DNA of 64,000 nt, from positions 62,001-126,000 of the forward strand of contig CATKHK010000075.1 in assembly GCA_949751835.1 (NCBI GenBank), given 5' to 3'. The position numbers and the translations under genes are program-made. Below, piece after piece: positions 8,782 to 64,000 of the stretch (the stretch's first letter is position 1; every line of letters begins with the position of its first letter). This DNA is from Blepharisma japonicum (taxonomy: Eukaryota; Ciliophora; Heterotrichea; Heterotrichida; Blepharismidae). The notes beneath the pieces were generated by a model. It made no database searches. It was not told where the DNA came from and saw nothing but the letters and a program-made list of their open reading frames with translations.

Positions 8782-11700
8782 ATGGATGAAGAGTCAGTAA
8801 AGAATAAAGAGAGCAGCTCATGTAAACTAGATACTGTCATGTGCCAGCGTAATGACTTATATAAACGACTTGAAGCCGAAAGGGAAAGTCATTATAAAAC
8901 TGTTTTATTTGAAACTTTTATAAAGCTTGAAAATAGTGATAATAAGACCAAGGCTTCAAAAGAATATCTCATTTTCAATTATACTGCACTTTTTATTCGA
9001 AAATTTCAGCTATTATCACTCGTGCTCATGACTTTTGAAACTTCAGCAAATATTACTCTAGAATCTTCTTTGAACGGACTATTAAAATCGGTGAGACTTG
9101 ATATTCTTTGTATTGACTTTAATGCTCAATCCGAATTTTTATTTATCTTATTAATCAGTATTTGAGGACTATTTATTAGCTTTTGCTTGATTTACTTCCA
9201 AATTTATAGTAAAAAGAAAATTGTGTTAAAACCTCTCATTTTTGTTGCTAAATTCTTGGGATGGGCAATTGACAACATCTTTTTTATTCCTTATTTATAT
9301 AGTGTGGGAATATATGTAAAATACACTTTTTTCAGTGAATCTATGGAAGTAAAAGAGTATGATAACACAAGCTCATCTAATTATAACACATATTTGGTAT
9401 TCCCCTTAATTTTGGGAATACCAATTATACTTTTAGCTAGTTTTTTTAGGGCAATTTATTATTGTAATCCTTTCTACACAATAAAGATTAAAAGAAACAG
9501 GATGCACTCATCAGTAACTTTAAAAGATGTTTATTTTCAAGTAATCCTAGTATTTTTATCATTTTATGATACAGATTTATTTTTCAATATTTTATGTGTC
9601 ATGATATCGCTTTTTATGATTTTTCAGTATTTTCTATACATGCCATTTGTAGTAATATTTGATAATTTATTTGATGCAAGTACTTGAACTATGATTCTTT
9701 TTGGAGTAATTTCACATCAACTTTCAATTTATAGCAGTGCTAGATCAGTTCGAGCATTAATAATGATTTTTATCTATCCATGCTCATGGATTATTATATG
9801 CAGATAAATTATGAATAAATTACATCAAAAATTTTATTAGGTAAAATCATTAATAACAATTTTATACATCAATTTAGTATATATTATTTTATGAACTGAT
9901 GCTTTGATCATGCAATAAATGCGTCAAATAAAGATCCTTATGGTATAGAGCTAAAAATAAGAAGTATTCTTCTTAAATCGAATTCTAATTTTTATGATAA
10001 TTCAAAAATTCAAATAAAGGCTATTTTCAAAGAGGCCACAAAAAAATTTTTATCCTTCAAGATGCTATTTGTATGGGAAGGTCTATTTTATTTAAGATAC
10101 GAGAGGAATAAATCTTTAGGTTTATTAAAACTATCAAAAATCAATTTTTCTTGCCAAAACCACTTAAATGTATGGCACAAAATTCATAGGAATATAACAA
10201 AATACTATAGCTACCCTAATATAGAAGCTGAATATTTGTATTACTATTATTATAATAAGCTGATCAATGAAGAATATGAAGAGGATTTAATATTGATAAG
10301 ATACATTAGAGATATTAATCAGCTTAATACAAAAGATCTAGAAGTCGCATGTGATCTTTGAGAGCTGTATATAAAGCTATCTAATGTTTCTGAATATTCT
10401 CCAAGTTCTATTAGCAAATCTTGCTCAATCCTTGCTGAAACTAAAAGAAAATATGAAGAAAAAGCAGAAAAAATGATGAGAAGGCATCACTCGGATCCAA
10501 TAGTTCTTGAAATATATGGGTCTTATAAGGCAGATTTTTTAGAGAATATTCATGGAAAAATGCTTTTGCAGAGAAGCAGAAGTTTAAAAAGCACAAAAAC
10601 CACAGGAGTTGATAGAAGCCCAGGCTTAAAGCATCAAGGAAATGCTGTTATGGTAGTAAGCGGAATGTTTGGATCTATTGGTGACATTTTATATTTAAAT
10701 GATGAAATTTTAAGACTGCTAAGCATTGATAGAATTGACGATTACCTTGGTACAAGCTTCACGCAGTTCATTCCTGCCCCTTTTGATGTAATGCATAATG
10801 ATATTTTAAGAAGAGGTTTGATTTTTGGAGAAAGAGTTGAAGTTCATCGGCCGAATCTGTTTTTAATCACAACTAGATCGCATTGTGTAGAAGTCACAAT
10901 GCATTTCCGTCTCTCTTTTTTTAAGCAAATCCCTTATTTTATAGCAGATTTCAACGAAAAAGGTCATAGCAGCAATTTAATTCTGCATTCTCCAGAAGGC
11001 TATATATATGCTGCATCAAAGAACATTAATCAGTTAATAGGAAACAGAAAGGGCACTATATATGAAGTTCTCAATAATATTGCTTACTATTTTGAAAAAT
11101 ATGGGTCAGGAACCCCTTTTGAGTACCATGAGGATTTTAGCTGCTTTATGCTGAGGACTAAGCTTGAAATTGATGGCTCTCCATTAGAAGCATTATATCT
11201 TGCAAATGATGCTGATTATTTTACGAGCATTACTGCCTACGAAGCTTCATTATCAAAAGAAAATTACGAATTATTTAATAAAGATGATAAAACCGAAATA
11301 ACAGCAATTCCAATTGAATCAAATTTGAAAAGCGGGCTAGTGAGTTCATATACATCAAATATGTTTTCGAAAATACACAAAAATAAAAAGATTGAAGAAG
11401 TTGAAAGTGATAGCGAGAAAATTATAAAGTTTTGCAAATCTATGAACATGAAAGTTAGGATTTCTATTATAATTTTACTGGGGATTATTATTTCTACTTT
11501 ACTTGCTGAAAAATATTTAATTGAAAAGCTAAATTTGTCCACCTTTATCAACAACTTTGCGACAATGAGATTTTTAGGGGTTGGCATTTTATTTGACTCA
11601 AGGTCGCTTGATTTGTTGAGTAAGGGATACAATTTATCAAACACAGAAATAGCCTATCGAAATTCATTACAGTCAAATATAATAAATTTAGAAAGCGCTT

Positions 11701-13139
11701 TAAATTTAGTTAGCTCAGATATATCTTCTTATGAATATTTAACCAATATTTTTATAGAAAATGAAATAGTTGTTACTGAATTAGTTGGAAATGGCACATT
11801 TCATGCAAATAAAGTAAATCTATTTCAAGCCTTGCAAAAAATTATGCAAGCAGGTTCCAAAATTTATAATACTGAGCTATCAAAATTTACTGATTCTTAT
11901 GCTAGTTTTTATTATATTTATTCAAATTTTCCTGGAGAAACTTTTAAATCGTAGCATGCGATTTTCCACGTCAGGGATTTCCACCTGCGCTATTTAGTAA
12001 TAACTTTTTCCTTGTCTCTGCCAAAGACATCATTTTCGGCCAAATGATAGAGAAGAGAAAAATTTTCCGGAAAAAAATTATATCCATTTAAATGTCTGAA
12101 TGAAAGTCTGTATTCAACTATAAAAGAAATGCAAAGCAACACATTGTCGGTATTAGAATTTTTAAAGATATTTAAACTGCTTGTTTTTATTCCGGCTTTA
12201 TTGATTATTATCTTTTCTATTCCAGATATAGTTAATCTTGAAAAATACAACAAAAAAAATTGAAGTAGGCTTTCTTCGCTGAATATAGAGAGACAAATAG
12301 CTTTAAGAGATAAACTTATTGATAGATTATATGAATTCCATGGAATAATGGTAGAAGAAATAGAGCCAAAATTCACTTCAAAAAAGGTTTATTCATTTAT
12401 TTGAAAATCATTTTTCTTTAGAATTCTTCTATTAGAGCTTGCCAGTATCTTATATTATTTCATTTCTATTTATGTGTTGCAAAATCAAATAAGCGATGCC
12501 TTAATTTCTCAAACTAATTATAGATTCCACTCAGGATTGCGAAGATCACTTACTAAAACTACTTATTTTTGAGCTAGAGAACAATTTTTAGATAAAAATA
12601 ATGCTTCATTTATTACTAACATTCTGCATGACGGAAATCCATTTCCTTCAATTCCGCACAAGTTGCAAAATTTGATTAATGATTATAATTACTGCCAAGA
12701 ACTTATCAACTACGGGCCGTTAAAGAAGTATTATAATGATGAAATGATAGACCTTATGGTTGGAAATCCTTGCACTCAATTAAGTAGTATAATATCAAAA
12801 TGTCAAAACAGTTATATAAGTATGGGAATAATTCCATCAATAGAGCTGTATTTAAATGAGATAAAAAGAGTACAAAATTACAATATAAATAACTGAAAAG
12901 ACATTATCAAGCTAGAGCAGTATTCTAAATTGATATGCAGCTCGGTAAGCTCAATGGTAAATATTTTTATGAATACAACAGATAGTCATATAAATGATAA
13001 TTTGGACAATCTTATTGTTACAACTTTTTTTTATTTTTTACTTATGCTAATTATTGCAACCCTGATAGTTTTTACAGCTGTAAATAAAATGAAAAATGAC
13101 TTGGTCGACAAAATCGAAATTCTAAAGTATTTTGAGTAA
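8782..13139 (+). CDS. PAS-B: multi-pass membrane PAS protein, interrupted by two IES-like inserts
   Basis: The frame starts at ATG 8782 (MDEESVKNKESSS, matching the starts of PAS-C and PAS-D) and ends at TAA 13137-13139. Two non-coding inserts, 9800-9882 (83 bp) and 11950-12093 (144 bp), break it. Without them the frame is continuous and encodes about 1,376 residues, collinear with PAS-C (1,386) along the whole length. The segments are 8782-9799, 9883-11949 and 12094-13139. The domain order is as in PAS-A: N-terminal TM bundle, helical region, PAS domain (VVSGMFGSIGDILYLN; FTQFIPAPFDVMHNDILRR), then a TM-loop-TM pair repeated twice. Multiple TGA codons stand for Trp where PAS-D has TGG, for example TGA at 9685 against TGG in PAS-D near 30506. 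As it stands in this DNA the gene is not translatable; if the inserts are eliminated in the somatic nucleus it is normal. Confidence 0.87.
9800..9882. other. IES-like insert 1 in PAS-B (83 bp, TATAT repeats)
   Basis: The segment lies between two copies of TATAT (9795-9799 and 9878-9882). It is AT-rich and has stops in the PAS frame. Deleting 83 bp, not a multiple of three, restores the frame exactly and gives IIIYYFMN where PAS-C has IIMDYFMN and PAS-D VILNYFMS. The paralogues have no insert here, so it entered PAS-B after duplication or was lost elsewhere. It lacks GT...AG ends. Confidence 0.85.
11950..12093. other. IES-like insert 2 in PAS-B (144 bp, TTTAAAT repeats)
   Basis: The segment lies between two copies of TTTAAAT (11943-11949, 12087-12093). 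It contains a TAG right after the left repeat and is more GC-balanced than its surroundings. Deletion of 144 bp gives GETFKCLNESLYSTIKEM, against GETFRCLNASLYSTIKEM in PAS-C. The precision of the join argues strongly for an eliminated or recently inserted element. Confidence 0.88.
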
Positions 13140-13669: not shown

Positions 13670-16600
13670 ATGTATGAAGAGTCAGTAAAGAGTAGAGCAG
13701 CTTGTTCATATAAATTTGGGACAATCATTTGTAAACGTAGCGATTTGTATAAAAGACTAGAAGTAGACAGGGCAAGCCACTATAAAACTGCTTTATTTGA
13801 AACCCTATTGAGGCTTGGAAATAGTGATTTTAAGACAAAAGCTTCTAAAGAATATTTTATTATAAATTGTATTGTGCTTTTCATCAGAAAAATTCAACTT
13901 TTATCGATCGTTCTTTTGACATTTGAAAATTCCAAAAATATAACTTTGGAATCTTCCTTGAATTGGTTATTGAAATTAACAAGGTTTGATATTCTTTGTA
14001 GTGACTTTAGTCTGCAATTTATATTCTTATTTATTTTGATATCAAGCCTCTGAGGATTTTGCATTAGTTTTTGCCTAATTTATTTTCAAATGTATTGTAA
14101 AAGAAATGTGATTTCTTTGCCACTTGTTTTAGTAGCAAAAATTTTAGGATGGACATACGAAAATATATTATTTATTCCGTATTTATACAGTGTTGGTGTA
14201 TATACTAAATATACTTTTTTCGATAATTCCACTGAAATAACAGAATATGATAATAAAAATTCATCTGACTATAATACATATTGAGTGATACCCTTAATTT
14301 TAGGCTTACCTATTATAATTTTAGTTACCTTTTTCAGAATCATTTATTCCTGCAAACCATACTACACAACAAAAACTAAAAGAAATAGAATGTATTCAGT
14401 TATTACTTTGAAAGATTCCTTCTTTCAATTAATCATAGTTTTTTTATCATTCTACAGTTCGGATTTATTTTTTAATATCTTGTGTGCCATATTCTCTATT
14501 TATATGGCTTTTCAGTACATATTGTACTTGCCATTTGTAGCAATATTTGATAACTTATTTGAAGCAAATACTTGAATAATTATGTTATTTGGAGTAATTT
14601 CTCATCAACTTTCTATTCGCACTAATGCTAAGTCTGTCCGTGCATTAATTATATTTTTCATCTATCCGTGCTCTTGAATTATTATGGATTATTTTATGAA
14701 TCGGAGTTTTGATTGCGCTACCAATAAAAAAAAACAAAATCCTTACTGTATTGAGTTTAAAATCAGACGGCTTTTGCTTAAAACTAAATCCAAGAACTTA
14801 AACAATAATTTAAGATCACAAATAAAATCGATTTTTACAGAGGCAACAAAAGATTTTTTATCTTTTAAGTTACTTTTTATATGGGAAAGTTTATTTTATT
14901 TGAGATATGAAAAGGATAAATCGTTAGCCCTATTGAAACTTTCAAAAATAAATTTTTCGTCCCAAAATACTTTAAGTTTTTGAAAGCAAGATAAAAAAGA
15001 TAAAATGAAAATTTTTAGCTATCCTGACATAGAAGCAGAATTTTTATATTACTATTATTATAATAAACTTATAAATGAAGAAATAGAAAAAAATTTAATG
15101 TTGATAAGGTACATTAGAGATATTAATCAGCTGAATACAAACGATTTAGAAGTTGCATGTGATCTTTGAGAGTTATATTCAAAACTATCTAATATATCTG
15201 AGCATTCCCCCAGAACTATTAGTAAATTTTGTTCAATGCTTGCAGATTCTAAAAAAAAATATGAAAAAAAAGCTGAAAAAATGATGAAAAGGCATCATTT
15301 AGATCCATTAATCCTTGAAATTTATGGATCATACAAAGAAGATTTATTAGGTGATACTGAAGGAAAAGCACTCCTCGATCAAAGCAAAAATCTAAAGGGA
15401 ACCCAAGTTTTAGGTGCTGATAAAAGCTCAGATGCTAAATTTCAAGGCATGGCAATTATGGTGGTAAGTGGCATGCCTGATACAATAGGAGATATTTTAT
15501 ATTTAAATGACGAAATTCAAAAATTGCTTATAATTGATAATGTTGATGATTATCTTGGTTCAAGCTTCACACAATTTATTCCACCTCCTTTTGATGTAAT
15601 ACATAAGGATATTTTAAGGAGAGGATTAATTTTTAGCGATAGGAAAGAGATATTTCGTCCTAAACTCTTTTTAGTTACAACAAGAGGGCATTGTGTAGAA
15701 GTGACAATGCATTTCCGAGTATCTTTTTTTAAGCAAACTCCTTATTTCATAGCAGATTTCAATGAAAAAGATTATAATAGTAATATAATCCTACATTCTT
15801 CAGAAGGACATATATATGCAACTTCAAAGAATATCCATCAAATAATTGGTAGCAGAAAAGGCTCTATATTTGAAGTTTTAAATAATATTTCATATTATTT
15901 TGAAAATTATGAACCTGGAACTACCTTTGAGTATGCTGAAGATTTCAGTTGCTCTATGCAAAGAGCTAGGCTTCAAATTGATGATTCACTACTAGAAGTT
16001 TTATATATAATGAACGGTGATTATTTTGCTCAAATTAAAAACCTCGGAAAAGCACCTGCAATTGAAAGCGACGAATGATATTATAAATCTAACTATAACA
16101 GCCATGTCACAATTATCCCAACTGAGTCTAATCCTAAGCTTGAGCTAGCAATATCCCACTCTCATTTCTCAACTATGCATTCAGGGATTGAAAACAACGA
16201 AAACAATGAAAAATTCAAAAACACTGAAAAAGCTGAAAACAATAGTGAAACAGTTATGAAATTTTGCAAATCTATGAATATGAAAGTCAGATTGTCTGTG
16301 GTATGTCTACTTGCAATTATTATTTCAACTTTACTTTTAGAAAAATATTTAATTAAAGATCTCAATTTATCAATTTTTATTAGCAATTTTGCTACAATGA
16401 GATTTTTAGGATTAAGTATCTTATCTGACTCGAGATCTCTTGATTTATTAAGCCAAGGCTATAACTTATCATCTACAGAAACAGCTTATAGGACTTCATT
16501 GCAGACAAGTTTGCTAAACTTAAAAATAGCTTTGGCATCCACTAATTCAGACATATCATCTTATAGTTATTTAACTAACCATTTAGTAGAAAACGAAATA

Positions 16601-17830
16601 ACAACAATTGAAAAACTGAGTAGTGACTTATATCGTGCCAATAGGATTAATTTATTTCAAGCTTTACAAAAAATTATACAAGAAGGCTCTGCAGTTGTTA
16701 ATACTAAATTTTCGAATTTTTCAGATATCCAGACAAGTTTTTTTTATATTTATTGAAATTTTCCAGGAGAAACTTTTAGATGTTTAAATGCAAGTCTTTA
16801 TTCGACTATTAAAGAAATGCAGGAAAACACATTATCTGTATTAGAACTTTTAAAGTATTTGAAAATACTTGCTTTTATCCCTGCTTTACTAATAATTGCT
16901 CTTTCAATTAGGGATATAATAAATCTTGAAAAATACAATAAAAAGAATTGGAAAAGTCTCTCATCACTAAATATTGAAAGAAAATTAGTTCTAAGAGAGA
17001 AGCTTATTGACAGACTTTATAATTTTCATGGCTTGCAAGTAGATGAAATCAAGTTCAAGCATACAAAAAAAAAGGTTTATTCATTTATTTGAAAATCATT
17101 TTTCTTTAAAATCCTTCTCTTAGAGCTTTCAAGTATTTCATATTATTTTATTTCTATTTATGTATTGCAAAATCAAATAAGTGATGCTTTAATTTCTCAA
17201 ACTGATTATAGATTTAGTTCAGGACTTCGAAGATCGCTTACTAAAACTACTTATTTTTGAGCTAGAGAGCAATTTTTAGATAAAAACAATGCTTCATTTA
17301 TTACTAATATTCTGCACGATGGAAATCCATTCCCTTCTATTCCACACAAGTTGCAAATTTTGATTGACGATTATAAGTATTGTCAAAAATTCATCAATTA
17401 TGGGCCGCCAAAGAAATATTATAATGATGAAATGATTAGCCTTATGATTGGAAATCCTTGCACTCAATTAAATAATACAATAGCAAAATGCCAAACCAGC
17501 TACATAAGTATGGGGATAGTGCCATCAATTGAACTTTATCTTGATGAAGTGAAGAGAGTAGCAAATTATAAAAAAACCGATTGAAAAGACATTATAAAGC
17601 TAGAGCAATATTCTAAACTGATATCAAGCTCGGTAAGTTCGATGGTGAATATTTTTATGAATACTACTGATGCTCAGGTTGCTGACACTTTAGATAATTT
17701 AGTTATCACAACCTTATTATATTTCTTGCTGATGCTAATTATTGCAATGCTAATTGTGTTCACAGCTGTAAATAAAATGAAAAAGGACTTGATTGATAAA
17801 ATTGAAGTTTTAAAATATTTTGAATGCTAG
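13670..17830 (+). CDS. PAS-C: multi-pass membrane PAS protein (TmcB/TmcC-like family), uninterrupted
   Basis: One frame runs from ATG 13670 to TAG 17828-17830 and encodes 1,386 residues with about fifteen TGA-Trp codons. The start MYEESVKSRAAC matches those of PAS-B and PAS-D. The PAS domain is recognised from VVSGMPDTIGDILYLN and FTQFIPPPFDVIHKDILRR. Four C-terminal TM segments flank two helical loops, the second containing a conserved motif IGNPCTQLNNTIAKC whose Cys pair may form a disulphide. Its last ~550 bp are much more similar to PAS-B than the middle of the gene, which suggests gene conversion between tandem neighbours. Because it carries no insert, it is the reference for placing the inserts of PAS-B and PAS-D. 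Confidence 0.9.
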
Positions 17831-18932
17831 TTAGTGTATTAAGAGCTTTCAACTCAGCTTTAATTAATTTTACTGCAATGCTTTTAAATTTATTCTTTTT
17901 CCTTTCTTATTTTGCTCTGTTAATTTAATTTTAATACGAAATATAAGATATAATAATTGTTTGACTGCTAAGCGAATAAAAAGGATAGAAACGTTCTATT
18001 TAGATTTTTATTAGCTATCTTTATATTTTAATTGGATTTATGTGTCTATCATTTTTTTCTTGTAATATCTGAGCATGCAAAGATCTTGGGTTTCTTTAAA
18101 AGATCTGATTTGCTCAATAAAAAGAAATTTGCTTCAAGAGTTATTCATGCTTGAATAGATTCAATTTATTTTATTCAGATAGGAATAAATCTATACAGTT
18201 TATTAAATGAGATTAAGTTATTTATATTTGAAATGCTTTCTATTTTTATATTAATATACATAAATGACTGATCAGCCCTCTAAGTGATGGTTGTCCGCTT
18301 ATATGTGGATTATTTTTTTTGAGCCATGGGTTATTTCAGTAATATCAGGAGTACTAAAGAGAGGTTAGGCTAGGGTAAAGCTATTGATTAGCTCTCAGAC
18401 TCGCAACATAAGCCGCGATTTCATTCAATTGATTCGTTCAAATAAACTAAATGAAATGTGTAGAATACTATTTGCATCTATACTATGACATACATAATGT
18501 GAAAGAAAGAGTCAGAGCAGCAGATAGGATTATATTAGTTTTTTTATTCTTTTTTTCTTCTTAAAAATTGTATAAAATATCTCATAGAAATTTCGATAAT
18601 TGTTTTGAAACTGATTTATTATTCATAAGTGCTAAATATAAAGATGAAATATATCATTTACAAATATCTCTTCAATAACAAAATTAAATGCCGAAAAAAC
18701 AAAGAAATAATAAAAAATAATTTTTCCAAAATATATGGAGAAAGTACCAAAATTTCTATCAGCTAAAAAATTTACTAGGCAATGCATCTTGAGAAAATTT
18801 TAGCAAATCATAAAAAATTTGAAATTATAAGGTTATATCTTTCTAGATTTCCAAAAATTATTGATTATCAAGAATTTTATATAAAATTTATTTGTAAAAA
18901 ATCCAAAAATATTGTTTTTTTCTTTTAAATAG

Positions 18933-19080
18933 TGCCTTCAGTCATGAAGGAGGCGCTGTATTTTTGTGTTGGGTAGACCATTCAAATTTTGGTCGACAAA
19001 ATTTTGTCAAATAGGTCCGACCAGAAATAATGTTGGTCAGACCAATGCAAAAATATGTATCCAATTATGTGTTGAAGGCA
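18933..19080. mobile_element. MITE-like element, 148 bp, perfect 8-bp terminal inverted repeats
   Basis: The element starts TGCCTTCA and ends TGAAGGCA, an exact inverted pair; adjacent bases extend the match imperfectly (about 12 of 14). The left end is itself a hairpin (CCTTCAGTCATGAAGG). Inside are four variants of a GGTC/GACC palindrome and a second inverted pair around TATTTTTG/CAAAAATA. It has no coding capacity. Blepharisma germline DNA is known to carry many MITEs. No clear target-site duplication is visible, so the ends are tentative. Confidence 0.55.
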
Positions 19081-19129
19081 ATGTTTAAACTATCTATATT
19101 TTCCTTTATATTTTGATAAAATTATTTAT

Positions 19130-19450
19130 TCTAAAATTATAATGGAGATATTACTTAATTAAGGTAAATGAAGGAAAATATGTAAAATTTAAATTACGAA
19201 ATAATGCTCAGATCTACACCTGCTTAGAAAGTTGGTGCACAAAGACCCAGAAATAATTATTTAGATATCGAATGTGCTAAAGTCTGGAAAGTTTTAGGAC
19301 AGAAAAAAAATTTTTTAATCAATTTTGAAACGCATTTACCATATGGGCCTGATGGACTCAAAGTAGGCGGAACTTACCTTTGTAAAACTATCAAGATCAA
19401 ACCAGTATGCGGCAAACACATTCGAAACTTAAAGAATTTACTATGCAAGA
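19130..19450 (+). pseudogene. Relic of an unknown gene, shared by modules 1 and 2
   Basis: A coding-like frame (QRPRNNYLDIECAKVWKVLG, later PYGPDGLKVGGTYLCKT) is interrupted by a TAG near 19230. A second copy lies at about 24287-24600, where a shifted frame still reads GSDGLKRGGTCLCKTT. Conservation of Gly, Cys and Lys positions between copies suggests it was once coding. No family is recognised. It may instead be the inside of an insert belonging to the decayed PAS gene of the module. Confidence 0.4.
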
Positions 19451-19877
19451 GTTAAAGCAAATTCCACAAATCTACAAGTAGAATCCCAAATCCTCAAGAA
19501 TATTGAAAGTCATATTAGCGTGCTAAAAGACAAAAAATAGGGTTGACTTAGGAAAATCTTCAGTATGCTCTTTATGTTGTAAAAATTAAAGCCTGTTGAA
19601 GTCAGCCAACTAATCCTGAAAAATGAGAAGTAATCAAGCCATAAAAATTCGCTCTAAGATGTTTCATAGAACAAAAAATCATAAATCTATTCATTATTAG
19701 AACTCTCCTTAGTGAGACAATTAAATCTCCCTTCTCAGCAGAAGAAGAAAAAATATGATTGTAAAAAGAGGTTCCCAAAAAACAATTGAGAGTAAAATTA
19801 AGAAAAGACTCCAACATATAAACAGGAAACAAAATTGAATCTGATAAATCTTTAGCATTACCAATACTGTATACTTA

Positions 19878-19972
19878 ATTACTTGTGCTATTGCAATTTT
19901 AATTGCGCTAACAGCTATAAATAAAATAAAAGACTAGGAAAAATTGAATCCTCGAATAATTTGAATGCTAAT
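19878..19972 (+). pseudogene. 3' end relic of a PAS-D-like gene
   Basis: The bases match the last ~30 codons of PAS-D (CAIAMLIMLATINKIKDDLIGK and the following codons) followed by the same 3' flank that joins PAS-D to kinesin-RCC1-3. It has an in-frame TAG and small indels. The PAS gene of module 1 has therefore been deleted except for its tail. Confidence 0.65.
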
Positions 19973-20150
19973 TAATATTTTTAGTCGTTCTTTAATTTAT
20001 TATTAAAATCTAGATTCAGTAACTAATAAAAGAATTAATTGCTCAATTATTCTATACTGTTAAAATTCTGCATTTAATTAATAATGACAATCTTATCTAT
20101 TACCATTATTGATTTATTAATATAAATTAAAATCTATTTATAATATATAA

Positions 20151-23100
20151 ATGAAATCAAAAGACAATATCAAAGTTTGCATCAGAAGCCGTCCTTTATT
20201 TTCTCAAGACTCAATAGACGCTTTTATCTACGACTCTTCCTCAATCCAGTTAAAGCAATCAATCTCCAATGTTCCTTCATCCTATACATTTGACAATGTA
20301 TTTGATTCCCAAACAAGCACTTCTGAAGTCTATGACACCGTCTGCAAAGAAATTATTGAAGGCGCAATAGAAGGATACAATGGTACTATTTTGGCATATG
20401 GCCAAACAACCTCAGGAAAAACGCATACAATTATAGGAAATCCTGATAGTCCAGGAATTTTGTCCTTGACTTTTATCGATATTTTTAATATCATACAGAG
20501 TAAAAGGAGAGAATTTAATATATTAGTCTCTTATTTAGAGGTTTATAACGAAATTATAAATGATTTATTAGATCCTGGGTCAATTAATTTGAGGATCAGA
20601 GAAGACCCGACTGAAGGATATTTTGTGTCAGGATTAAAGCAGCTGGTGGTGAGAAATCCAAAAGAGGCAATAGAAATATTGGAATTTGGAGAAAAACACA
20701 GGAAATATAGAGCCACACACATCCATGAGCATTCGTCAAGGTCACATACAGTATTCAGGATTTTAATAGAAAGCAAAGATATAGATGGGTTGACTGATGA
20801 TGGTAATGAGATCAGGATTAAAGGAAATATGAGATTTTCTGTATTAAATCTAGTAGATCTTGCAGGGTCTGAAAGAATTGGAGATGTAGGGAGCATTAAT
20901 ACTTCAGAAACTTCTCATATCAATAAAAGCTTATTTGTATTGTCAAATGTAATAAACAAGCTTGCTGATAACCCTAACGCCTACATACCATTCAGAGATA
21001 GTAAGTTGACAAGAATATTAAGCAATTCCTTAGGAGGTAATGCTTTAACTGCAATTATTTGTACAATAGCACCAGAAATGAATAACATCCAATTAAGCAC
21101 ATCTACCTTAAGATTTGCGACAAGGGCTAAAACTATCAAAAATAAGCCAATTATTAATGAAGTTCTAGATGATTCTAATCTAATCGCAGGCTATAAGAAT
21201 AAAATTGCTAGACTTGAAGCTCATATTTCTTCAATTATTGAAAGCAAAGATAAAGAAGTAAGCAAGCTTAAAGAAGAAAATGCAAAATTAAGAGAACTAT
21301 CGATGAATATTCCTGAAAAGCAAGATGAAGAGCAGGCTATGAAATTTGCAAATGAAAGCGAACAGGAGTTTTATGAGAAGTATAAAGATCTGAAAAGAAT
21401 TTTTAAAATACAGATTTCTATAAAACATTCACTTATAAAGGAGTTAGGTGAGATAAAAGAATTAGGAATAATTGGATCATATGCAGATTTCTAAATAGAA
21501 ATTATGATAGTTAGCTCAATGCTTAGGATTGCAGTTATTCGATTTTATTTTTAAAAAAATGTGTGTAGGTCTCCTCACCAAATAATTGGGTTTGACATTA
21601 AAAAAAGAAAATTTGATAAAGAAAATACAAAAGAAGTCGCTAAGCTATCAGATTGAGAATCAGAATGTTTAAAGCTAAGGAATAATTACTTGGTCGAATT
21701 AGCGGCACTTGATGAAAATTATTGGGATCATTTAAATGAACTTTTCTCAAGACTCAGAGGAAATAAAACTTCTGAAGACAGAAAACCAACAATTAAAATT
21801 GAACCAATATCTAGGCCAGATACTAATGTGCAGCCTAAACTATTAAGTCCGATTTCTCAAAAAAATATTAGAATTCACAATAAGGTTGGAAATATTTATA
21901 GAAACCAATCCCTAGCTTTTCTTAATCCAGACAAAAAAGCCTCCCCAAAATCAAGTCACAGTCTCATGAGTCCGATTTCTGCTAACTCCCCGAAAACCAG
22001 AAGTTCCAATCCCAGCCCATTTAAGCTTGAATTTGAAGACCTTGCAGATACTCCAAAGCCTAATAAAATTCGAAAATTATCACATGATCTTGTTATATCA
22101 CCAAGAAAAGTTATAACTCTAGAATCCGATTCTTCATCTGACGAAATAGCTTCCAACTCTGAAGATGAAAAAGAAGAAGAGCAACAATACAATCCTCCTC
22201 CCAACCTATCTCCACCTAGCGAATCGCTAAATTCTGTCCCTTCAGATCTAAAGCAAGGCGGAAATATGATTTTATTCGGCATGAATAGAAATGGCAGTTG
22301 TGCAGGAAAAAACAAATACCCTAATTCAAACTATAATTATCTTGAGCATGAATATTCAGAAATAGTCTCAGGGTATTATCATAATGCAGTTATCGATAAT
22401 CAAGGAGTGCTAAGGATGTTCGGAAATGGAAATGTAGGCCAGCTAGGAAACGTAAATTTAAAATCAACATTTATACCTCAGCTTGTAAGCCACCCTTTAA
22501 GAGAAGTCCCTATAAGCATGGTAGCTTGTGGATGGCTACATACAATTTGTGTCACAAAAACAGGACAAGTTTTTACCTGGGGCTTCAATGGAGATGGGCA
22601 GCTTGGCTTAGGCGATTTTTATGATAGATCTTGGCCTGTCATGGTTAATGATATGGACTCAGTAAACTATGTAGCAACTGGATCCTTGCATTCAGCTTGT
22701 ATAAAAAAAGGTGAACTTTATATGTGGGGTGCGAATCCTGATGGGAGATTATTTAAGCAGCCTGTGCAGATCAAACGTAAAGTGTTTAAAAAGGAAGAAA
22801 GTCCGATAAAAATCGTTGAAATTAGTAATATTGTAGAAATTGCTTTAGGAATTTCGCATTCTATAGCGCTGACTTCTAATGGGGATGTGTATACATGCGG
22901 AAGCACTGATCACGGACAACTTGGAATGGGGGCAAATTATGAAATCTATTCAGCACTATTTAAAATTCCAATGTTTGGAAGTATGATAAAAGCAACAAAA
23001 GTTAAATGTGGAGATGGGTATTCAGCAATTTTGGACTCACAAAAGCGTTTATATACTTTTGGAAAAGGAAGTTATGGAAGATTAGGTTTAGGGCACGATA

Positions 23101-23354: not shown

Positions 23355-23398
23355 TATTCCTAAAATCTATTAATATTAATATTAATTTTAGAGCATAA

Positions 23399-23533
23399 AT
23401 GAAGGGAGTTAATATGAGGACGGTGTCATACCTAGAGATCTATAACAGTGACTGATATTTTATTTTTAATAATAGCAGTGTGATTATAGAAATTAATTGC
23501 GATTTGCCTAAAATTCTCGTACAAAATTACTAA
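23399..23533 (+). pseudogene. Truncated relic of gene X (module 1)
   Basis: A 44-residue frame (MKGVNMRTVSYLEIYNSDWY...) matches the first ~45 codons of gene X at 38712 onward, in the same place 45 bp after the RCC1 stop. Homology then ends abruptly and PAS-gene sequence begins a few bases later, so a deletion has joined the start of X to the end of a PAS gene. The same junction is seen in module 2. Confidence 0.75.
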
Positions 23534-23615
23534 ATGACAGAGATCCTTTTCCCTCAAAATCACACAAGCTGCAAATTTTGTTGATTATAAATATTACCAA
23601 AAATTTATCAATTAT

Positions 23616-23773
23616 AGGGGAGAATTTAAAAATGATATAAAGCCTTAAAATGTAAAAATAAATAATTTTTACAAAAATTCATTCAAAAAAATGCAAAGTT
23701 TATTATATAATTTCACTTGTGGATTTTGTAAAAAAGCAATTTTTTACATTTTTTGCACCATTTTTCCAATTAT
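23616..23773. other. IES-like insert in the PAS relic (158 bp, CAATTAT repeats)
   Basis: Copies of CAATTAT at 23609-23615 and 23767-23773 bracket 151 bp of AT-rich DNA plus one repeat. Deletion restores collinearity with the FINYGPPKKYY region of PAS-C. Its interior has the near-palindrome AAAATGTAAAAA...TTTTTTACATTTTTT. Confidence 0.65.
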
Positions 23774-23871
23774 GGGCCATTAAGAAGTATTATGAAGATA
23801 AAATGATCAGCCTTATGATTGGAATCTTTGACTAAATTAAATAATACAACAGTAAAATGCCAAGCCATCTA

Positions 23872-23948
23872 TTTATTACTCAAGAAAAAATAATTTAATA
23901 TGACTGCATTCCCTTATTTTCTATAGAATAAGGCCTACTATAATCATA
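23872..23948. other. IES-like insert in the PAS relic (77 bp, TA-bounded)
   Basis: This segment is absent from PAS-A to D. Joining at TA (23870-23871 and 23947-23948) gives AIYISMGIVP, against TSYISMGIVP in PAS-C. A single unit of 77 bp fits the short class of ciliate IESs. Confidence 0.65.
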
Positions 23949-24286
23949 CATAAGCATGGGAATAGTGCCTTAAATAGAACCTTATCTTAATGGGTTAAGA
24001 GAGTAGCAAACTATAAGAAAGACAATTGAAAAGACATTATAAAGCTTGAGCAATATTCAAATTGATATCAAGCTCAGAAACTTCTATCATAAATATCGTT
24101 ATGAATACTAATGATGCTTTAGTTTCTGGCACTTTAAACGATTTTGTTATCATAATCTTATTATATTTCTTATTGATGTTGATTCTTGCAATACTAAATT
24201 GTGTTTACAGCTGTAAATAATATGAAAAGTGGTAAATAATAAAAAAATTGAAATTAAAAGCTTTAAGCTTCCTAGATTCCAAAAAT

Positions 24287-28090: not shown

Positions 28091-28149
28091 TATTCTAAAA
28101 TCTATTAATATTAAAATCAATAGTAGAGCGTAAAATAAATGGAATTAAT

Positions 28150-28265
28150 ATGAGGATGGTGCCCTATACAGGGATCTATAACAGTGACCGATCCTTTATT
28201 TTGAATAATAGCATACTGATTGAAGAAATTCATGGCGATTTGCCTACAAAATTTACTGCATGACC
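28150..28265 (+). pseudogene. Truncated relic of gene X (module 2), followed by a few PAS-gene bases
   Basis: The frame MRMVPYTGIYNSDRSFILNN... EEIHGDLP follows gene X, then homology breaks at nearly the same point as in module 1. The next ~60 bp (to about 28320) resemble the start of the PAS relic at 23536. The X/PAS deletion therefore predates the duplication of modules 1 and 2. Confidence 0.7.
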
Positions 28266-28329
28266 GAAATTCTTTTATTCAGTTGAAAATTTTGATCACA
28301 TCAATTATAGGGAGATAAAAATGCAAAAA

Positions 28330-51400: not shown

Positions 51401-54400
51401 GTCGGTGCTGCATCCCCATCTAAGTAAAGTGAAATTGTGGTGTAGCCAGCCAAAATATTTCCTGTATAAGCTAAATTATGCCAGCTGCCAAATAATGATG
51501 ATGAAATTGTTATAGAAATACTTGAGCCATCTTTTAAAGTGACCACAGCTATTGAGTATCCATTTGTATCAAATTGAATTCCAAACATTTCAGTAGATCC
51601 ATTTAATTTTACCAGCAAATATCCTAGGCTAATAGGCTTCACTCATATAGTAACTGTATAAAAAGGACTCATCATAAATGCGCCAGCATCCATGTATTTT
51701 CCGCTGGTAAAATAATATCCACGACTAATCGAAGGAATTGGATCACTTGAATCCCATGTAGGATATGCATTAGAGTTTGAAGAGCCAACTTGAACTGAGC
51801 TTAAATTATCTAGGTAAATTAAATTATGTAGGGATAACGACAAAGCACTATCATTGTTTCAATTGCAAACATTCGTAGGATCTGCTGTATAGCCTGTTGG
51901 GCAAGTAGTAAAGCACATATTAAAATATAAATAGTATCCAGGACTGCAGGAGATACAATTATAATAAGAAGTAGATGTGCAGTCATCGCACCCTGTTTCG
52001 CAGTCTTTAATGCAGGTATCACCTATAGAAGATGGTTTCCAACCTGCATTGCAAGTACAGCCTACCCCAGGGCCGCTTGCATTAGTGGCACATATTGAAC
52101 ATTTATTTAAAGTAAATCCTGAGCAGGTTTTACATAAAATATCATCACAATAGTTGCAAGATAAAGCTCTCCTGCACCCAAGAGAACAAGAACCTCCACA
52201 ATTTTGGCATGCCAAGCCATCATAGTACTGGTTGAAACTGCAAGACCATAAAGATGAAGTACTTAATGCAAGCTGTGCTGTAAAATCAATGATGGCTGTA
52301 TTTCACATAGTAATTGAATATATATATCCTGCAAAGGTTGAAGAGCTTGTACTTTTTCCAATATAAACAACATCACTAGACACATCTCTAAATATGTTAT
52401 TTGTGCTGGATGAGGCAGCACCATTATTAGTATTATAACGAGTCTGGATAGAAGTTGTGCCTTGTGAATAGGAAACTGTTAAGGATAGATATACCCATCC
52501 AGTAAAGCTTAAAGTTGCAGAAGTCACTGAGACTGTTGGATTTGTGATCAAAGGCTGCTCCAATACAATTGTAGCTGATCCTGAAGAATTTAATATAATT
52601 CTGCTATTTTTCTGGAAAACATCTCCAGCAATAATCACATATATCCATAGCCCTACAGAAAAATTGTGAGCCAGCAATAAATAATAGAATGGCAATATAT
52701 GCGAAATTTCCTTGTCTGGCTTATGTTTTTACCATAAGGATCACATTTAGCAGAGAATCTATATCCGACTACAAAGGGAAGGAGTGATAGCCCCATAGTC
52801 GAACCTTATAGCAGCGGAAGACTTAAGGTCTTACTATTTAGCACTCATCTTAGGCTGAACACTTGCAGGACGTGAATTAAGAGAAAAAACAAACGCTCAT
52901 TAAGACATTTAGTTACTGGTGGCAACATTGCTTTGGAAGGTCTATTCGTTTTTGGTCAGGCCCTTAATGTAATAGTTAGTTCAAATTATAAAAATAAGAG
53001 CATGGAATGTATGACTTTAAACATTTTATCTAATGTGAGCCAAATATATATTTGTTGTAGACACCAAATGGCAAGTGATTTTTTCTCTTTCCTTTTTGAA
53101 AGGTTGGCATTTGCTTCGAAAATTTGATCAATTTTTCAGTAATTTCTCTAAAATGCCTGATTTTGCAGGGTAAATTGAATAATCAAAATTTTTAGGAAAT
53201 TATAGCTGAAGATATGTAAACTTTCAAAAAATACAGAGCTAATAATATTTAGCCGACATCAAATATTTTCCACCTGAAAAATAAAGCCCTCTGTTATAAA
53301 CAGGCACAGGATCCTGTGTGTCTACAGTAGTAGAAAAATAATATGAGGCTGCTGATGAAGATGTCTGGAAAATGCCATAAGACCCTCCCCAATCTTGATA
53401 AAAAGACTGATCGACAATAGAAGATGTAGATATTGTACATGTTGGGGATGAATATGCATAGCCAAAAGGGCATTCATGTAAACATACAGTCCCAACAGCA
53501 ACTGCTGAGCTACTACATTGGCTGCATTCGTGATAATAAGTTTCAGCGCAGTCATCACAGAGACTGTCACATATTTCGCATGTTTGTGTGGGTTGGATCC
53601 AAAAAGCATTTAAGTTGCATTGGCATTGATCATTTCCCGAAGGAATATAAGCGTTTGTTATGCATCCAGAGCAGGCACCGTCAAATGCCGAACAAGCTGA
53701 GCATTCTTTTGCTTTGCATAAGCGGCAAGTTAAGAGGCTTCTACAACCATAGCTGCCTCCACAATTTTGTGAGGAATCGCATTGTTTGCAAGTCATATAG
53801 GAAGAATCATAATAGTACCCAAATTCACAACTGTCTGGGCAGAGCTTTTCTGAAGGGCATCCAGTTGAGCAGCTTGTTGGGCATCCAGAAGTAATCCATT
53901 CATCAAGGTAATGACCATTTTCATTAAAAATTTTAAGGCTCCATAAAAAGCCTGCAAAGCCATCTGCTCCAGAGTATTGCCCTATATACAAAGTGCCAGT
54001 ATCAATTAGCATCTTTGAATTTGTAGAGCTTTGGGTTGAGACGAAGGATCCATCCAAATAGTAAGAAATTTTCGTTTTGCCACTATTTAAATTCCCTTCA
54101 AATGCAATATTATGCCAATTTCCAGTAAAGATAGTGGTTGAATCAGCCAAAGTGACTGTTGAGGAGTCTTCTAAGACAAGGACAATTGAAATTTTCCCTG
54201 CTAGAAATAATATATTAATAAATTGGTTTGTCCCATCCGATTGAGAGAGCAGTTTCCCATCCCCTTTTTCTCTAACCCATAATGCTATTGAGTAAAATGG
54301 ATAAAGCTTAGCATTATTCAAAGTAATAGTCGAAGAGCTAGTAAAATAATAGCCTCTATATATACTAGGAATAGGATCACCTGCTTCAAACGTAGGGTAA

Positions 54401-56605
54401 GAATTGGAGTTACTAGAACCAATTGTTATGCTGGAATCTGTAGAACTGAGCTTAATAATGTTTTTAAGAGCTAAAGAATATATGACTGCAGATGATTGAA
54501 CACAGGAATTAGATGGATTTGGACTTGCTATATAACCTGTTGGGCAATCTAATAAGCAAAGTCCATTTAAATAGTAATAGCCGCTATCACATGACGTGCA
54601 TTGATAATATTGAGATCCTGAGCAATCATAGCATCCAGGAAAGCAATGCCAAACACAAGCAAACCCAGTTGATATATAATTAGTATTGCAATAACAAGCT
54701 GTAGCTCCTCCTCCAGTCGCATGATCAACACAAGTGATGCAATCCCCAGAATTAAAGCTGCTGCATACCTTACAAAGAGGATCGTAACAAATATTGCAAG
54801 AGGAAGCTCGAGTGCATCCTTTACTGCAGCCTGAACAAGCTTTACATTGGGAATCAGTTGTATCATAGTATTCGCCAAATGTACAAATTCCAAAACAACT
54901 GCTTCCACCTGAAGCACAATAATATGTACCTAGATATTCAAGCATAAAAGGTTTAAAGCTTACATTTCAGAGCTTAAAACTGTAGATAAACCCATTAAAG
55001 TAACTATTTCCTTGACCGATATAAAGGGTTGAAGCTGTAGATTCTCTAAAAATATAGCCTGGGGTTGTTGTTGTACCGGCGATAGCTAGATTATTTTGAT
55101 AAGGATTTATAGAGGTGGAATAGGATATGAATTCGACATTATAACAAATCAAAATCCAAACGCCACTTGTTATGCTCAAAGGATTGGAGGTTACTAATAT
55201 AAATATACTTTAAAATGGTAGCACGTATCTATTTCCATCTTTGCGCGAGGGCAAAGCAAACTAATTTCTTATACGAGGCATTGATGGCACATAAAACTAT
55301 TAAAAAGCTCGTCTTTAAAATCTTTATTACTAATATTGTTGTCAATGATGGACTTTGAAGAGTTAAAGTCATAGCTCCAGATCCTTGTATTCTCATTAGA
55401 CAAGATCCTAATGTTCCTTTTCCAACCAAATCATTAGTTGTAGATATGGAATATGTCCATAAGGCAATAGTGAAAGAATGTGAAAACCAAAGAGGCGTGC
55501 TTGAAGCCAAGTAATTCCCAGGACTTATGCCAGAAAAATATAATCCTTGAAAATATGAAGGAATCGGATCAACATTATCCGGACTCGCAAAGAACTGGTA
55601 AGTAGCAGCACTGCTTCCAGTATTAAAAATCCCATAACTACCAGCGAAATTTTGATTAAAGTTTAATCTGATGACTGGCGCACTATAGGTTGAGCATGAT
55701 GCACCTGTAAATCCATAAGGACAGCCTATTAAGCACACTGAGTCAATTAGATAGTATGAAGCCGATGAACAAGTATTGCAAGCAAATACTCCATCACCAT
55801 CGCAAACACTACAAAGTTGGTCACAGAGTTCGCAGGCAGGTGTTTTACTGTTAAAATAAAATTGAGAAGAAGTGCAAGCGCATTTCGAGTTAACTAAACT
55901 TGCACCAGGAACGCAATTAGAACAGACAGCGGAATATTGATTGCAGGTTACGCATAGTTGATCGTCACACATTGAGCAGTAATTAGCTTTTGAGCAGTCA
56001 CCTTTAACCAAAATTGTGTAGTTAATAATTGGATATTCTCCATCTATTACGGTAAAATAGATTGGAACTGCGTTGGCTGTCGCGAGTGTAATTGTTGAGC
56101 CATTAACTACTAGCTGTGTTCCTAAATTAGACAATGTAAAAGGAATATATGTTTCTAAAACTCTGCATCGAAATAGGCCATTAACACTAAGAATAAAAGT
56201 ACCTGCCATTCTAGCAGTAAACCTTGTTGCTCCACTTGATTCAGTACAAATTCCTAAAATTAAAACATAATTTGAATCTCCAGTTGTAATTGATAATGTA
56301 TAAGAAAAGCTGATTCTTGATACAAATGTTTTGGCAGGAGAAAGATTACTATACTTTCAATTATAGATACTTGAGCAATATAAAATACTATCAGCTGTTG
56401 CACTTGGACTATAAATTAAGGTATCTGCACCCATAGTTCATGCTTCTGGGGACATAGAAATTGGTGAACTTGACCCATGGTTGAAAGATAGAACGATATT
56501 GGATGCAACTAATGTTGAACTCGCTGAAGGTAAAAATTCAGCAAGATAAAGAAGTGAAAAACATAATGATGTTTTAAAGAGCAAATGAGACTCGAATATA
56601 GTCAT
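42462..56605 (-). CDS. Giant cysteine-rich, LamG/ConA-like repeat membrane protein (~3,692 residues) with nine IES-like inserts and one intron
   Basis: From ATG 56605 to TAG at 42462 the minus strand forms one frame once nine inserts (3,050 bp together) and a 15-nt intron are removed: 3,693 codons including stop, with all phases agreeing. The N-terminus looks like a signal peptide (KTSLCFSLLYLAEFLPSASS). The body alternates furin/GFR-like cysteine-rich blocks (CxxC every few residues, as in CDDCAETYYHECSQC) with jelly-roll lectin-like blocks (LYFSGGKYLM, FTIALWTY, TLYIG, FAGFLWSLKIF), about six or seven rounds. The end (about 43900-42640) has some eight TM segments, then a charged cytosolic tail. 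This plan fits the large GFR-domain surface proteins common in ciliates. Dozens of TGA codons are Trp. Which sub-domain binds what is unknown. An alternative reading as several truncated genes is less likely, because each join is in frame and completes a repeat. Confidence 0.82.
42856..43032. other. IES-like insert 9 of the giant gene (177 bp, TAAA/TTTA repeats)
   Basis: The plus-strand TTTA copies lie at 43033-43036 and 42856-42859. Deletion joins WSSMGLIL to KKLEIVQQITN in the membrane region. The interior has several stops in the gene's frame. Confidence 0.75.
43431..43445 (-). other. 15-nt spliceosomal intron
   Basis: On the minus strand it reads GTAATTTTTATGTAG and contains the only in-frame TAG in this part of the gene. 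Removal joins TALVLLN to FSMSNANQC within the membrane region. Confidence 0.85.
45667..45816. other. IES-like insert 8 of the giant gene (150 bp, TATA repeats)
   Basis: The deletion joins RPNAHLVY to EKKFCSSWSEG in frame at TATA. The right end lies in an alternating AT run, so the exact cut is uncertain by several bases. Both sides are cysteine-rich blocks. Confidence 0.68.
46189..46523. other. IES-like insert 7 of the giant gene (335 bp, TCCTCAAA repeats)
   Basis: TCCTCAAA lies at 46524-46531 and 46189-46196. Deletion gives SWFEDIQTSSTTLIG, the strand pair found in other lectin-like blocks. This repeat has no TA, but a TA-to-TA cut (46516-46517 to 46187-46188) also keeps the frame with two extra residues. 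The interior (46260-46480) is GC-rich. Confidence 0.78.
47112..47944. other. IES-like insert 6 of the giant gene (833 bp, TATA repeats)
   Basis: Joining at TATA (47945-47948 and 47112-47115) gives CISSRYLYQDLCIQYCPTGY, a perfect cysteine-rich repeat. It is the largest insert in this gene. Its middle (47500-47880) is markedly GC-richer than any neighbouring coding or intergenic DNA and has no recognised open frame, which suggests a transposon remnant. Confidence 0.8.
48634..48880. other. IES-like insert 5 of the giant gene (247 bp, TA-bounded)
   Basis: The join SSLDL to ESEIPILTI is in frame and gives a block length close to its paralogous block. A second TA 30 bp further would also keep frame. 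The interior is AT-rich with stops in all forward phases of the gene. Confidence 0.65.
49931..50106. other. IES-like insert 4 of the giant gene (176 bp, TA-bounded)
   Basis: The deletion joins GDILQKDSTVV to INSNGVAKI, parallel to GDVFQKNSRI and ILNSSGSATI in another block. The repeat is only TA, so the cut may be a few bases away (GTATA occurs at both ends in a different phase). Downstream phases up to 48881 agree with this join. Confidence 0.68.
50491..50925. other. IES-like insert 3 of the giant gene (435 bp, TTA/TA-bounded)
   Basis: Joining at TTA (plus-strand TAA 50926-50928 and 50491-50493) gives CVKCLGTYYFEC. The seven residues between Cys match CDDCAETYYHEC in another repeat of the same protein. 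The interior is very AT-rich. Confidence 0.75.
52680..53240. other. IES-like insert 2 of the giant gene (561 bp, AATAATA repeats)
   Basis: Repeat copies lie at 53241-53247 and 52680-52686. Deletion joins GGKYLMSAKYY to LLLAHNFSVGLW, the standard order seen in the other lectin-like blocks. The inside contains a GC-richer tract (52740-52870) unlike the flanking coding DNA and no open frame, suggesting decayed transposon sequence. Confidence 0.8.
55191..55326. other. IES-like insert 1 of the giant gene (136 bp, ten-base repeats)
   Basis: TTACTAATAT (plus strand) occurs at 55327-55336 and 55191-55200. Removing 136 bp, not a multiple of three, joins SPSLTTILV to TSNPLSITSGVW in frame. The perfect 10-bp repeat containing TA is the strongest in the window. 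Confidence 0.87.
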
Positions 56606-62223: not shown

Positions 62224-64000
62224 ATGGAACCAGCATCAAAGCTTTTCTTCAAAGTTGGGCAGAAAACATCGAAGCATCCTAAACTAATTTTAACTATAGA
62301 ACTTCTGATAGCTATTTCAAGCTGTATTGGCTTCTTTTGGATTGACGTAAAATCTTCGCCTCATAGCCTTTGGATTGATACCGACAGCTCTTCACATCAC
62401 GACAAAAACTATGTTGATGATAATTTCGGACCGACCTGAAGGATAAATCGTGCTATTTTTACAGCCAAAGACAGCAGTGTTACTGATGTGTTTCAAAGAG
62501 AATATTTAGAAGAAGTCTGGCAAATCCAATCAGCTATGGAAACCATGGAAATTTTGTATGATAATAGGCTTCTTACGCTAGATTATTTTTGTCACAAGCC
62601 AGGATACAACTCAAACTGTTATACAACCTCGCCCATGGATTTTTGGAAAATGAATGTAGACGTTCTTATGACAGATTTATATGTCAAACAAGTAGCCATG
62701 TGCCTTAATAACGCAAGTAATAACGGTATTTCTTGTTATGACAGAAATGGCTTGCCTATCAGAAGAAACTCTGTTTTTGGAGGAACTTCTTGTGATATTG
62801 ATGGAAATGGGAATTGTTCATTAAAAGCAAAAGCTCTTATATTGACTTTTTATTTAAATGATGATCAGCATACAATGTATTTAGGAGCCAAAGTATGGGA
62901 GCGGCGAGTATTTGAGCACAAGTTAAGGGATTTCAACAACAATGGAAAAAATAAACTAAAAGTGAGCTATGGATCTCAAAGGGCTCTGCATGATAAACTT
63001 CAAAAATATGAAGAAATTAACCCATTGATTATTGGGATCCCATTGCTATTTTTATTTATCGTATTAGGCATCATGTTTTCTTCACTTCCTTCTAAAGTTC
63101 ACTCACGATTCTTATTGAGTGCTGGCGGAGTTTCAATTATTATAGCAAGTGTCGTGATAGCGATAGGATGCTCACCAATATTTGATAAAGACCTTTATGT
63201 TATTACTATCCAAGTTTTGCCATTTATACTTATCATATTAGGAGCTGGCCATTATTTTTTAATAATTTGGGCAAATGATAACGCGAAAATAAATTCTGAT
63301 GGCAAAACCAATGAAGTTATCCTTGGAGAAACCATGAAAAATTCTGGACCGATATTGACAGTTGCGCTTTTGTCAGAGCTGTCTGTTTTTATTATAGGCT
63401 GCACATATCAATATCCAGGAATTAGGGAATTTTGTGAATCATGTGTAGTAGGATTAATTTTCTTATATATATTCCAGGTTACTGGATTTCCAGCAATGCT
63501 TGAACTAGATACAAGGAGGATTCATAAAAAGAGAATTGATGTTTTGTGCTGCTTTGACCTTATAGGGAATGATAAGCTTATAAGAAGAAATTATATAAAA
63601 AGAGCTGTCAATAAATATGGCTTAATACATTATTTATTTAAATAATCTAATAGCTGAATATTAATTTTAAATAAAGGATAAGCTTTTAAAATAAAGTAAT
63701 AATACGCATAGAGCTTATTTATATAGATATGGTATGGTACATTCCTTCTCTTTTCAATATAGTTACTAAAATTTCATGTGGACTTATTGCACTTTCATTG
63801 CTACTTTTAGCATTTGGAGCAATGGATAATATCCATAGAGGATTAAACCCTCAGGTGCTTGCCCCCTCCGGATCAAATCTTCAGAATTATTATGAAGACT
63901 ATGAAAAGTATACAGAGACTGGAGAATTAGGATACCTAGTACTCAAAGATCTCAACTATACCAGTGTAAATAACCAAAATTTAATAAAGAAGCTAAGCGA
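62224..64000 (+). CDS. Patched-like protein with sterol-sensing domain (3' end outside window; one IES-like insert)
   Basis: ATG 62224 begins MEPASKLFFKVGQKTSKHPK followed by a first TM segment (ILTIELLIAISSCIGFFW), an extracellular domain with paired cysteines and WxxDSSSHHD-like Patched features, and a five-TM sterol-sensing region at about residues 260-430 (IIGIPLLFLFIVLGIMFSS ... GAGHYFLIIWAND ... ELSVFIIGCTY). The frame stops at TAA 63643-63645, but the DNA after 63729 encodes the second half of the fold (IPSLFNIVTKISCG, then DLNYTSVNNQN), so the gene is probably one unit interrupted by the segment at 63638-63735. Patched/NPC-type proteins move lipids or sterols using ion gradients. If the insert is not removed, the product would be a half transporter. 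Confidence 0.82.
63638..63735. other. Probable IES-like insert in the Patched-like gene (98 bp, TAT repeats)
   Basis: Joining at TAT (63635-63637 and 63733-63735) gives YGLIHYLWYIPSLFNIV in frame, placing TM8 where Patched proteins have it. A 7-bp repeat TTATTTA (63630-63636, 63715-63721) also exists but gives the wrong frame. Boundaries are tentative, and two adjacent genes cannot be excluded. Confidence 0.55.

Follow-up and report, generated by a model that had tools for sequence, protein, structure and literature searches.

Interrupted genes in the window

We analysed a 64,000-nucleotide stretch of DNA (the window; contig CATKHK010000075.1, positions 62,001 to 126,000), whose protein-coding genes are broken by inserts that are candidates for internal eliminated sequences (IESs) of a ciliate. 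The content of guanine plus cytosine (GC), taken in 2-kb steps, is 25-37% across the window. Several open reading frames (ORFs) become much longer when TGA is read as tryptophan, and the 11,544 codons of the chosen ORFs include 57 TGA and 72 TGG, the zero count of TAA and TAG being a consequence of picking stop-free ORFs. Two exact 15-nt introns, each interrupting a reading frame, were read directly and are distinct from the IES-type inserts:

40903-40917, forward strand: 15-nt GT-AG intron of the DHHC gene
43431-43445, reverse strand: 15-nt GT-AG intron of the giant gene

In the parts of the published account used here, Blepharisma stoltei reads UGA as tryptophan and has introns mostly of 15-16 nt (PMC9942806). 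The best-supported origin of the window is a Blepharisma-like ciliate, that is, a heterotrich. The genes that carry inserts, or serve as their paralogues, include the following:

3844-7968: gene A, chemoreceptor-like
8782-13139: gene B, chemoreceptor-like
13670-17830: gene C, chemoreceptor-like
29602-35201: gene D, chemoreceptor-like
from 20151: gene K1, kinesin-RCC1
from 24879: gene K2, kinesin-RCC1
from 35393: gene K3, kinesin-RCC1
42462-56605, reverse strand: giant gene with cysteine-rich and laminin-G-like stretches

The four long paralogues A to D are called chemoreceptor-like as a label only: the Pfam scan covered A alone of the four, and A has no Pfam match. Self-comparison of the window shows that a unit made of a chemoreceptor-like gene and a kinesin-RCC1 gene is duplicated in tandem.

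The coding sequence, 45.6 kb in all, contains 16 breaks (B1, B2, D1, K1, K2, K3, X0-X7, X9 and N1), and two further inserts (E1 and E2) lie in a decayed gene fragment, which bears out the claim of at least fourteen inserts made in a preliminary description of the window. Of the lengths given there, 77, 83, 122, 136, 194, 335 and 833 bp were reproduced; 98, 176 and 247 bp were not, and our values at these places are all imprecise (95 bp for N1, about 161-170 bp for X3 and about 238-262 bp for X4). Seven of its nine repeats were found at junctions (TATAT, TTTAAAT, AATAATTGG, TTACTAATAT, AATAATA, TATA and CAATTAT), AATAATA being placed at a junction of X1 that scores 12 below the best one. The 15 inserts with listed ends have a mean length of 331 bp and a median of 158 bp; the figures given for B. 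stoltei IESs in the sections of PMC9942856 used here are 331 and 255 bp.

Direct repeats at paralogue-fixed sites

Where a paralogue could be aligned, it was used to fix the junction, for B1, B2, D1, K1, E1 and E2 by a split alignment that is blind to repeats. The inserts placed by comparison with paralogues are all on the forward strand:

9795-9877, forward strand: insert B1 in gene B, 83 bp, repeat TATAT; split alignment against paralogues C and D
11943-12086, forward strand: insert B2 in gene B, 144 bp, repeat TTTAAAT; split alignment against C
21467-21580, forward strand: insert K1 in gene K1, 114 bp, repeat AATAATTGG; paralogue alignment
23609-23766, forward strand: insert E1 in a decayed chemoreceptor-like fragment, 158 bp, repeat CAATTAT; split alignment against C and B
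23870-23946, forward strand: insert E2 in the same decayed fragment as E1, 77 bp, repeat TA; split alignment
26195-26316, forward strand: insert K2 in gene K2, 122 bp, at the site of K1 and of its sequence family; paralogue alignment
32568-34048, forward strand: insert D1 in gene D, 1481 bp, repeat of 0-1 nt; split alignment against C and B
36718-36911, forward strand: insert K3 in gene K3, 194 bp, repeat GTTTGAC abutting the K1/K2 site; paralogue alignment

At B1, B2, K1 and E1 the split alignment falls exactly on direct repeats of 5, 7, 9 and 7 nt, and the repeats at D1, K3 and E2 measure 1, 7 and 2 nt, the best E2 junction lying on TA in the comparison with C and off any repeat in that with B. 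The summed repeat length at these seven fixed sites is 38 nt, whereas 300 rounds of mononucleotide shuffling of the inserts averaged 5.7 nt and reached 16 nt at most. Taken singly, the observed repeat was reached in 3.3% of 300 shuffles at B1, in 0.3% at K3 and in none at B2, K1 and E1; the K1 and K3 tests are not independent, because the reference for K1 was built from the left flank of K3 and the right flank of K1 itself, and that for K3 is K1 minus its insert. The repeats of D1 (42% of shuffles) and E2 (21%) are singly not above those of shuffled inserts. Flanking direct repeats beyond chance, a feature of IESs, thus occur at sites fixed by homology. TA stands inside the repeat at B1, B2, K1/K2, E1, E2 and X0 and not at K3 and X6, these numbers being small and TA being common in the window.

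Reading frames and selection

Removal of the inserts leaves a single terminal stop in each of five genes, with products of 1029 (K1), 1029 (K2), 1025 (K3), 1376 (B) and 1372 (D) residues. Such restoration of the frame is what IES excision predicts, and in D it holds only if a neighbouring 9-nt repeat is ignored.

We simulated repeat-less inserts from gene C flanks and shuffled X1 sequence, and sought junctions within 60 nt of their ends. In every simulated insert (60/60), one or more junctions were in frame, free of stops and flanked by a repeat of at least 4 nt; the mean was 17.4 such junctions per insert, and 80% of the inserts had one of at least 6 nt. A restored frame together with a short repeat rich in AT is hence weak evidence. 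Junctions that lack homology are unproven, many of those drawn by frame and repeat alone being at chance level. When frame-restoring repeats were sought at the breaks without guidance from homology, many rival junctions came up, and homology-guided placement was used instead; the longest repeat from that search (14 nt, at 45.9/45.6 kb) resembles a cysteine motif that recurs in the coding sequence.

The interrupted paralogues are under purifying selection. The ratio of nonsynonymous to synonymous divergence (dN/dS) is 0.16-0.24 in the six closer pairs, that is 0.21 for K1-K2, 0.17 for K1-K3, 0.19 for K2-K3, 0.16 for B-C, 0.21 for B-D and 0.24 for C-D; pairs with paralogue A give 0.21-0.29 at a dS near 2. 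Removal of the inserts is very probably needed for these genes to work.

Two unrelated inserts in the kinesin-RCC1 trio

The kinesin-RCC1 genes show reciprocal empty sites: K3 is uninterrupted at the insertion point shared by K1 and K2, and these two are uninterrupted at that of K3. The repeats AATAATTGG and GTTTGAC abut, so that two unrelated inserts occupy almost one spot, and the K3 insert is not detectably similar to the K1 or the K2 insert. Derivation of all three from a single old insert with shifted ends was considered and found unsupported, shuffled sequences reaching the similarity score in 22% and 32% of cases.

Since K1 and K2 have their insert in common, it is older than the K1/K2 duplication, and both copies have remained constrained. 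B1, B2 and D1 are each missing from the other aligned paralogues. The suggestion that the inserts could serve as a test of insertion age holds mainly for one family, in which the order can be read from the K1/K2 insert and its absence from K3. The trio thus offers one insert that predates a duplication and an unrelated one nearby, which bears on the question of insertion hot spots.

The K1 and K2 inserts (21476-21580 and 26204-26316) differ at 3 of 104 aligned bases, with 10 gap columns. This divergence is lower than that of the four-fold sites (43/330, P 0.002) and of the 3' flank (32/164, P 3e-5), and not significantly below that of the 5' flank (15/190, P 0.13); we make no claim of selection on the insert. 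If the insert is retained, the predicted protein ends no more than 7 codons from it in K1 and K2, and no more than about 20 codons from it in K3. It is conceivable, and in our view improbable, that the linker between motor and RCC1 domain is a recurrent insertion site that the cell puts to use; a retained insert would then yield a motor without RCC1 domain, and elimination could choose between this and the full product.

Inserts in the giant gene and in the NPC1-like gene

Eight breaks of the giant gene (X0-X7) were placed through protein similarity among its internal repeats. The junctions obtained in this gene and in the NPC1-like gene are:

55201-55336, reverse strand: insert X0, 136 bp, repeat ATATTAGTAA; junction from protein similarity, at most 4 below the best score
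52687-53247, reverse strand: insert X1, about 561 bp, repeat TATTATT; 564 bp with repeat TATT scores higher
50494-50928, reverse strand: insert X2, about 435 bp, repeat TTA; protein similarity
49936-50121, reverse strand: stretch that holds insert X3, about 161-170 bp; junctions scoring within 4 of the best have no repeat
48618-48892, reverse strand: stretch that holds insert X4, about 238-262 bp; junctions scoring within 4 of the best have repeats of at most 1 nt
47116-47948, reverse strand: insert X5, 833 bp, repeat TATA; protein similarity
46197-46531, reverse strand: insert X6, 335 bp, repeat TTTGAGGA, free of TA; junction at most 4 below the best protein score
45633-45824, reverse strand: insert X7, about 192 bp with repeat TTAG, or 198 bp with a protein score that is better; protein similarity
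42835-43060, reverse strand: stretch that holds insert X9, about 190-230 bp; weak homology, with a break in frame from one coding segment to the next
63643-63737, forward strand: insert N1 in the NPC1-like gene, about 95 bp, repeat TA; joined frame stop-free to the end of the window

Two of the eight giant-gene repeats are unlikely by chance, namely the 10 nt of X0 (chance about 0.0004) and the 8 nt of X6 (about 0.008). The repeats of X1, X2, X5 and X7, of 3-4 nt, are not above chance (0.2-0.5). For N1, other in-frame junctions exist with repeats longer than TA, the match to solved NPC1 structures (PDB) does not extend to the break, stopping at residue 526 of 554, and the junction given was favoured partly on the basis of an NPC1 pattern. 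Both TTAG at X7 and TA at N1 were picked with TA in mind.

A search of X1, X5 and X6 for protein domains gave no match over the curated cut-off and one match to Arm under it, in X6 (E-value 0.03). The GC content of X6 is 0.39, versus a coding mean of 0.325. On the opposite strand inside X1, positions 52738-53115 (forward strand) form a coding-like open frame of 126 codons, for which Pfam gave no match.

A retrotransposon remnant in D1

Insert D1 holds a decayed reverse transcriptase, recognized by Pfam as RVT_1 with an E-value of 1.1e-4 and 22.4 bits, under the cut-off of 29.6, and by a match to PDB chain 8ibw_C (E-value 0.0015), which we take to be an R2 element. D1 thus carries the reverse transcriptase of a retrotransposon without long terminal repeats (non-LTR), as a weak and decayed match. 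Beside the D1 junction stands an imperfect repeat of 9-11 nt (AAAATTATTCA / AAAATTATTA), one base off the best junction, whose appearance suggests a target-site duplication. D1 probably began as a non-LTR retrotransposon insertion, and it links a retrotransposon remnant to a site within a conserved gene.

Nature of the inserts

Tryptophan TGA, 15-nt introns, frame-breaking inserts whose direct repeats exceed chance where homology fixes the site, paralogues with empty sites and purifying selection on the interrupted genes together argue that the window is very likely germline (micronuclear) DNA of a Blepharisma-like heterotrich, or a somatic scaffold with germline segments restored, and that the inserts are IESs. 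The IES interpretation of the preliminary description is hence the best-supported one, without the universal TA boundary that it had proposed. Absence of GT-AG ends from all 14 inserts examined at the listed junctions is consistent with it. The inserts would be cut from the DNA during development of a new somatic nucleus, leaving a single copy of the flanking direct repeat at the junction and the gene back in frame; the cut may be made by a domesticated PiggyBac-type enzyme with the help of small RNAs, as proposed for B. stoltei. The elimination itself, its timing and this machinery are inferred.

Several observations weigh against this interpretation. The best junctions of X3 and X4 show repeats of 0-1 nt, and six other junctions of the giant gene or the NPC1-like gene are without a repeat that is above chance or can be assessed. 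At K3 (GTTTGAC) and X6 (TTTGAGGA) two well-placed and well-supported repeats have no TA, which contradicts the earlier claim that every insert is bounded by it. The frames, said to agree in every gene copy, do so in K1, K2, K3, B and, with an insert of 1481 bp, D; a cut at the 9-nt repeat AAAATTATT, 1482 bp, leaves gene D one base out of frame. Two known transposon ends of B. stoltei were looked for in the window and not found. Finally, the 16 breaks in 45.6 kb are to be compared with about 40 expected from B. stoltei (P 1.2e-5), at a density of about 0.88 per kb of gene that we computed from figures in the available part of PMC9942856 and that characterises a species, not an individual insert. 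The breaks are also unevenly spread, with 9 of the 16 in the 10.9 kb of the giant gene and 7 in the remaining 34.6 kb (P 0.006), and the low density may reflect either a different species or an uneven region.

Unusually long spliceosomal introns, which would leave the RNA and not the DNA, would equally allow the frame to be regained, and X5 has a GT-AG junction scoring 348 where the best scores 350. However, none of the 14 inserts can be slid to GT-AG ends at its listed junction (N1 stands outside this test), seven of the eight giant-gene breaks have no GT-AG junction within 4 of the best score, the two clear introns of the window are 15 nt long as published for B. stoltei, and direct repeats of 5-10 nt do not characterise introns; we regard such introns as very unlikely. 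Hardly more credible is the idea of old mobile-element insertions that are never removed from the DNA, in gene copies that are dead. It would accommodate the reverse transcriptase remnant of D1, set beside a repeat like a target-site duplication, and the inserts of the decayed E fragment, but without their inserts K1, K2, K3, B and D are all full length, and purifying selection acts on them, dN/dS being 0.17-0.21 among the three kinesin-RCC1 genes even though each has an insert.

That many of the inserts, or of their ends, are assembly errors or sequencing indels has only a slight probability. The one-base fault at D1 and the imprecise junction ends of X3 and X4 are of the kind that errors produce, and uncorrected long-read indels are named by its authors as a limit of the B. 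stoltei germline sequence (PMC9942856, in the part used here). Against this, one insert is present at a shared site in both K1 and K2, with differences that look natural, and the repeats at homology-fixed sites exceed those of shuffled inserts.

Comparison with known inserts

IESs of B. stoltei are described in the relevant sections of PMC9942856 as mostly intragenic and precise, with heterogeneous direct repeats, about three quarters of them containing TA, as ranging from about 65 bp to kilobases, and as a setting in which retrotransposon sequence occurs both inside and outside them. The inserts of the window resemble them in being intragenic, in their heterogeneous direct repeats, in their range of 77-1481 bp and in the retrotransposon sequence within one of them. 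They differ in their lower density and in that several homology-fixed repeats measure 7-10 nt, while the commonest published ones are TA, TAT/ATA and TATA (PMC9942856). As with the IESs of Paramecium, in the part of PMC8354472 drawn on, coding exons have been colonised, a transposon origin is indicated and presence or absence in gene families allows dating, an approach established in that genus (PMC8354472). Unlike the IES ends of Paramecium, which have the motif TAYNR in common (PMC9942856, same sections), the inserts show no common end motif evident by eye. With the heterotrich introns of 15-16 nt (PMC9942806, in the part cited above) they share the property of breaking reading frames in the window; those introns are 15 nt long with GT-AG ends and no notable flanking repeats, whereas the inserts span 77-1481 bp and GT-AG is found in 0 of 14.

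Comparison of the inserts with one another gave, besides the K1-K2 pair, just short AT-rich matches. Inverted repeats were absent from seven of the ten stretches searched and weak in the other three, and one query in each of the genome and viral contig collections found no relatives. The inserts are most likely of a known kind, IESs, ordinary for germline DNA of the group and with locally interesting detail. They make a worked case of how far sequence by itself can prove IES-type inserts: the junction is set from paralogues, the repeat is tested against shuffled inserts, selection shows the gene to be still functional, and simulation shows that frame and repeat can easily mislead in AT-rich DNA.

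Other features of the window

Further genes of the window encode a TPR/U-box protein, a DHHC protein, a cyclic-nucleotide-binding ion channel and the NPC1/patched-like protein interrupted by N1. Within the decayed region upstream of K1, positions 19575-19859 (reverse strand) form a coding-like open frame of about 95 codons; the 100-residue ORF that contains it has no Pfam match. Upstream of K1 and K2, the regions 17850-20150 and 23400-24880 are decayed duplicates of the 3' part of a chemoreceptor-like gene and adjacent DNA. These duplicates have in common a 77% identical stretch (19133-19462 and 24282-24608), which splits the gene remnant in one of the two copies.

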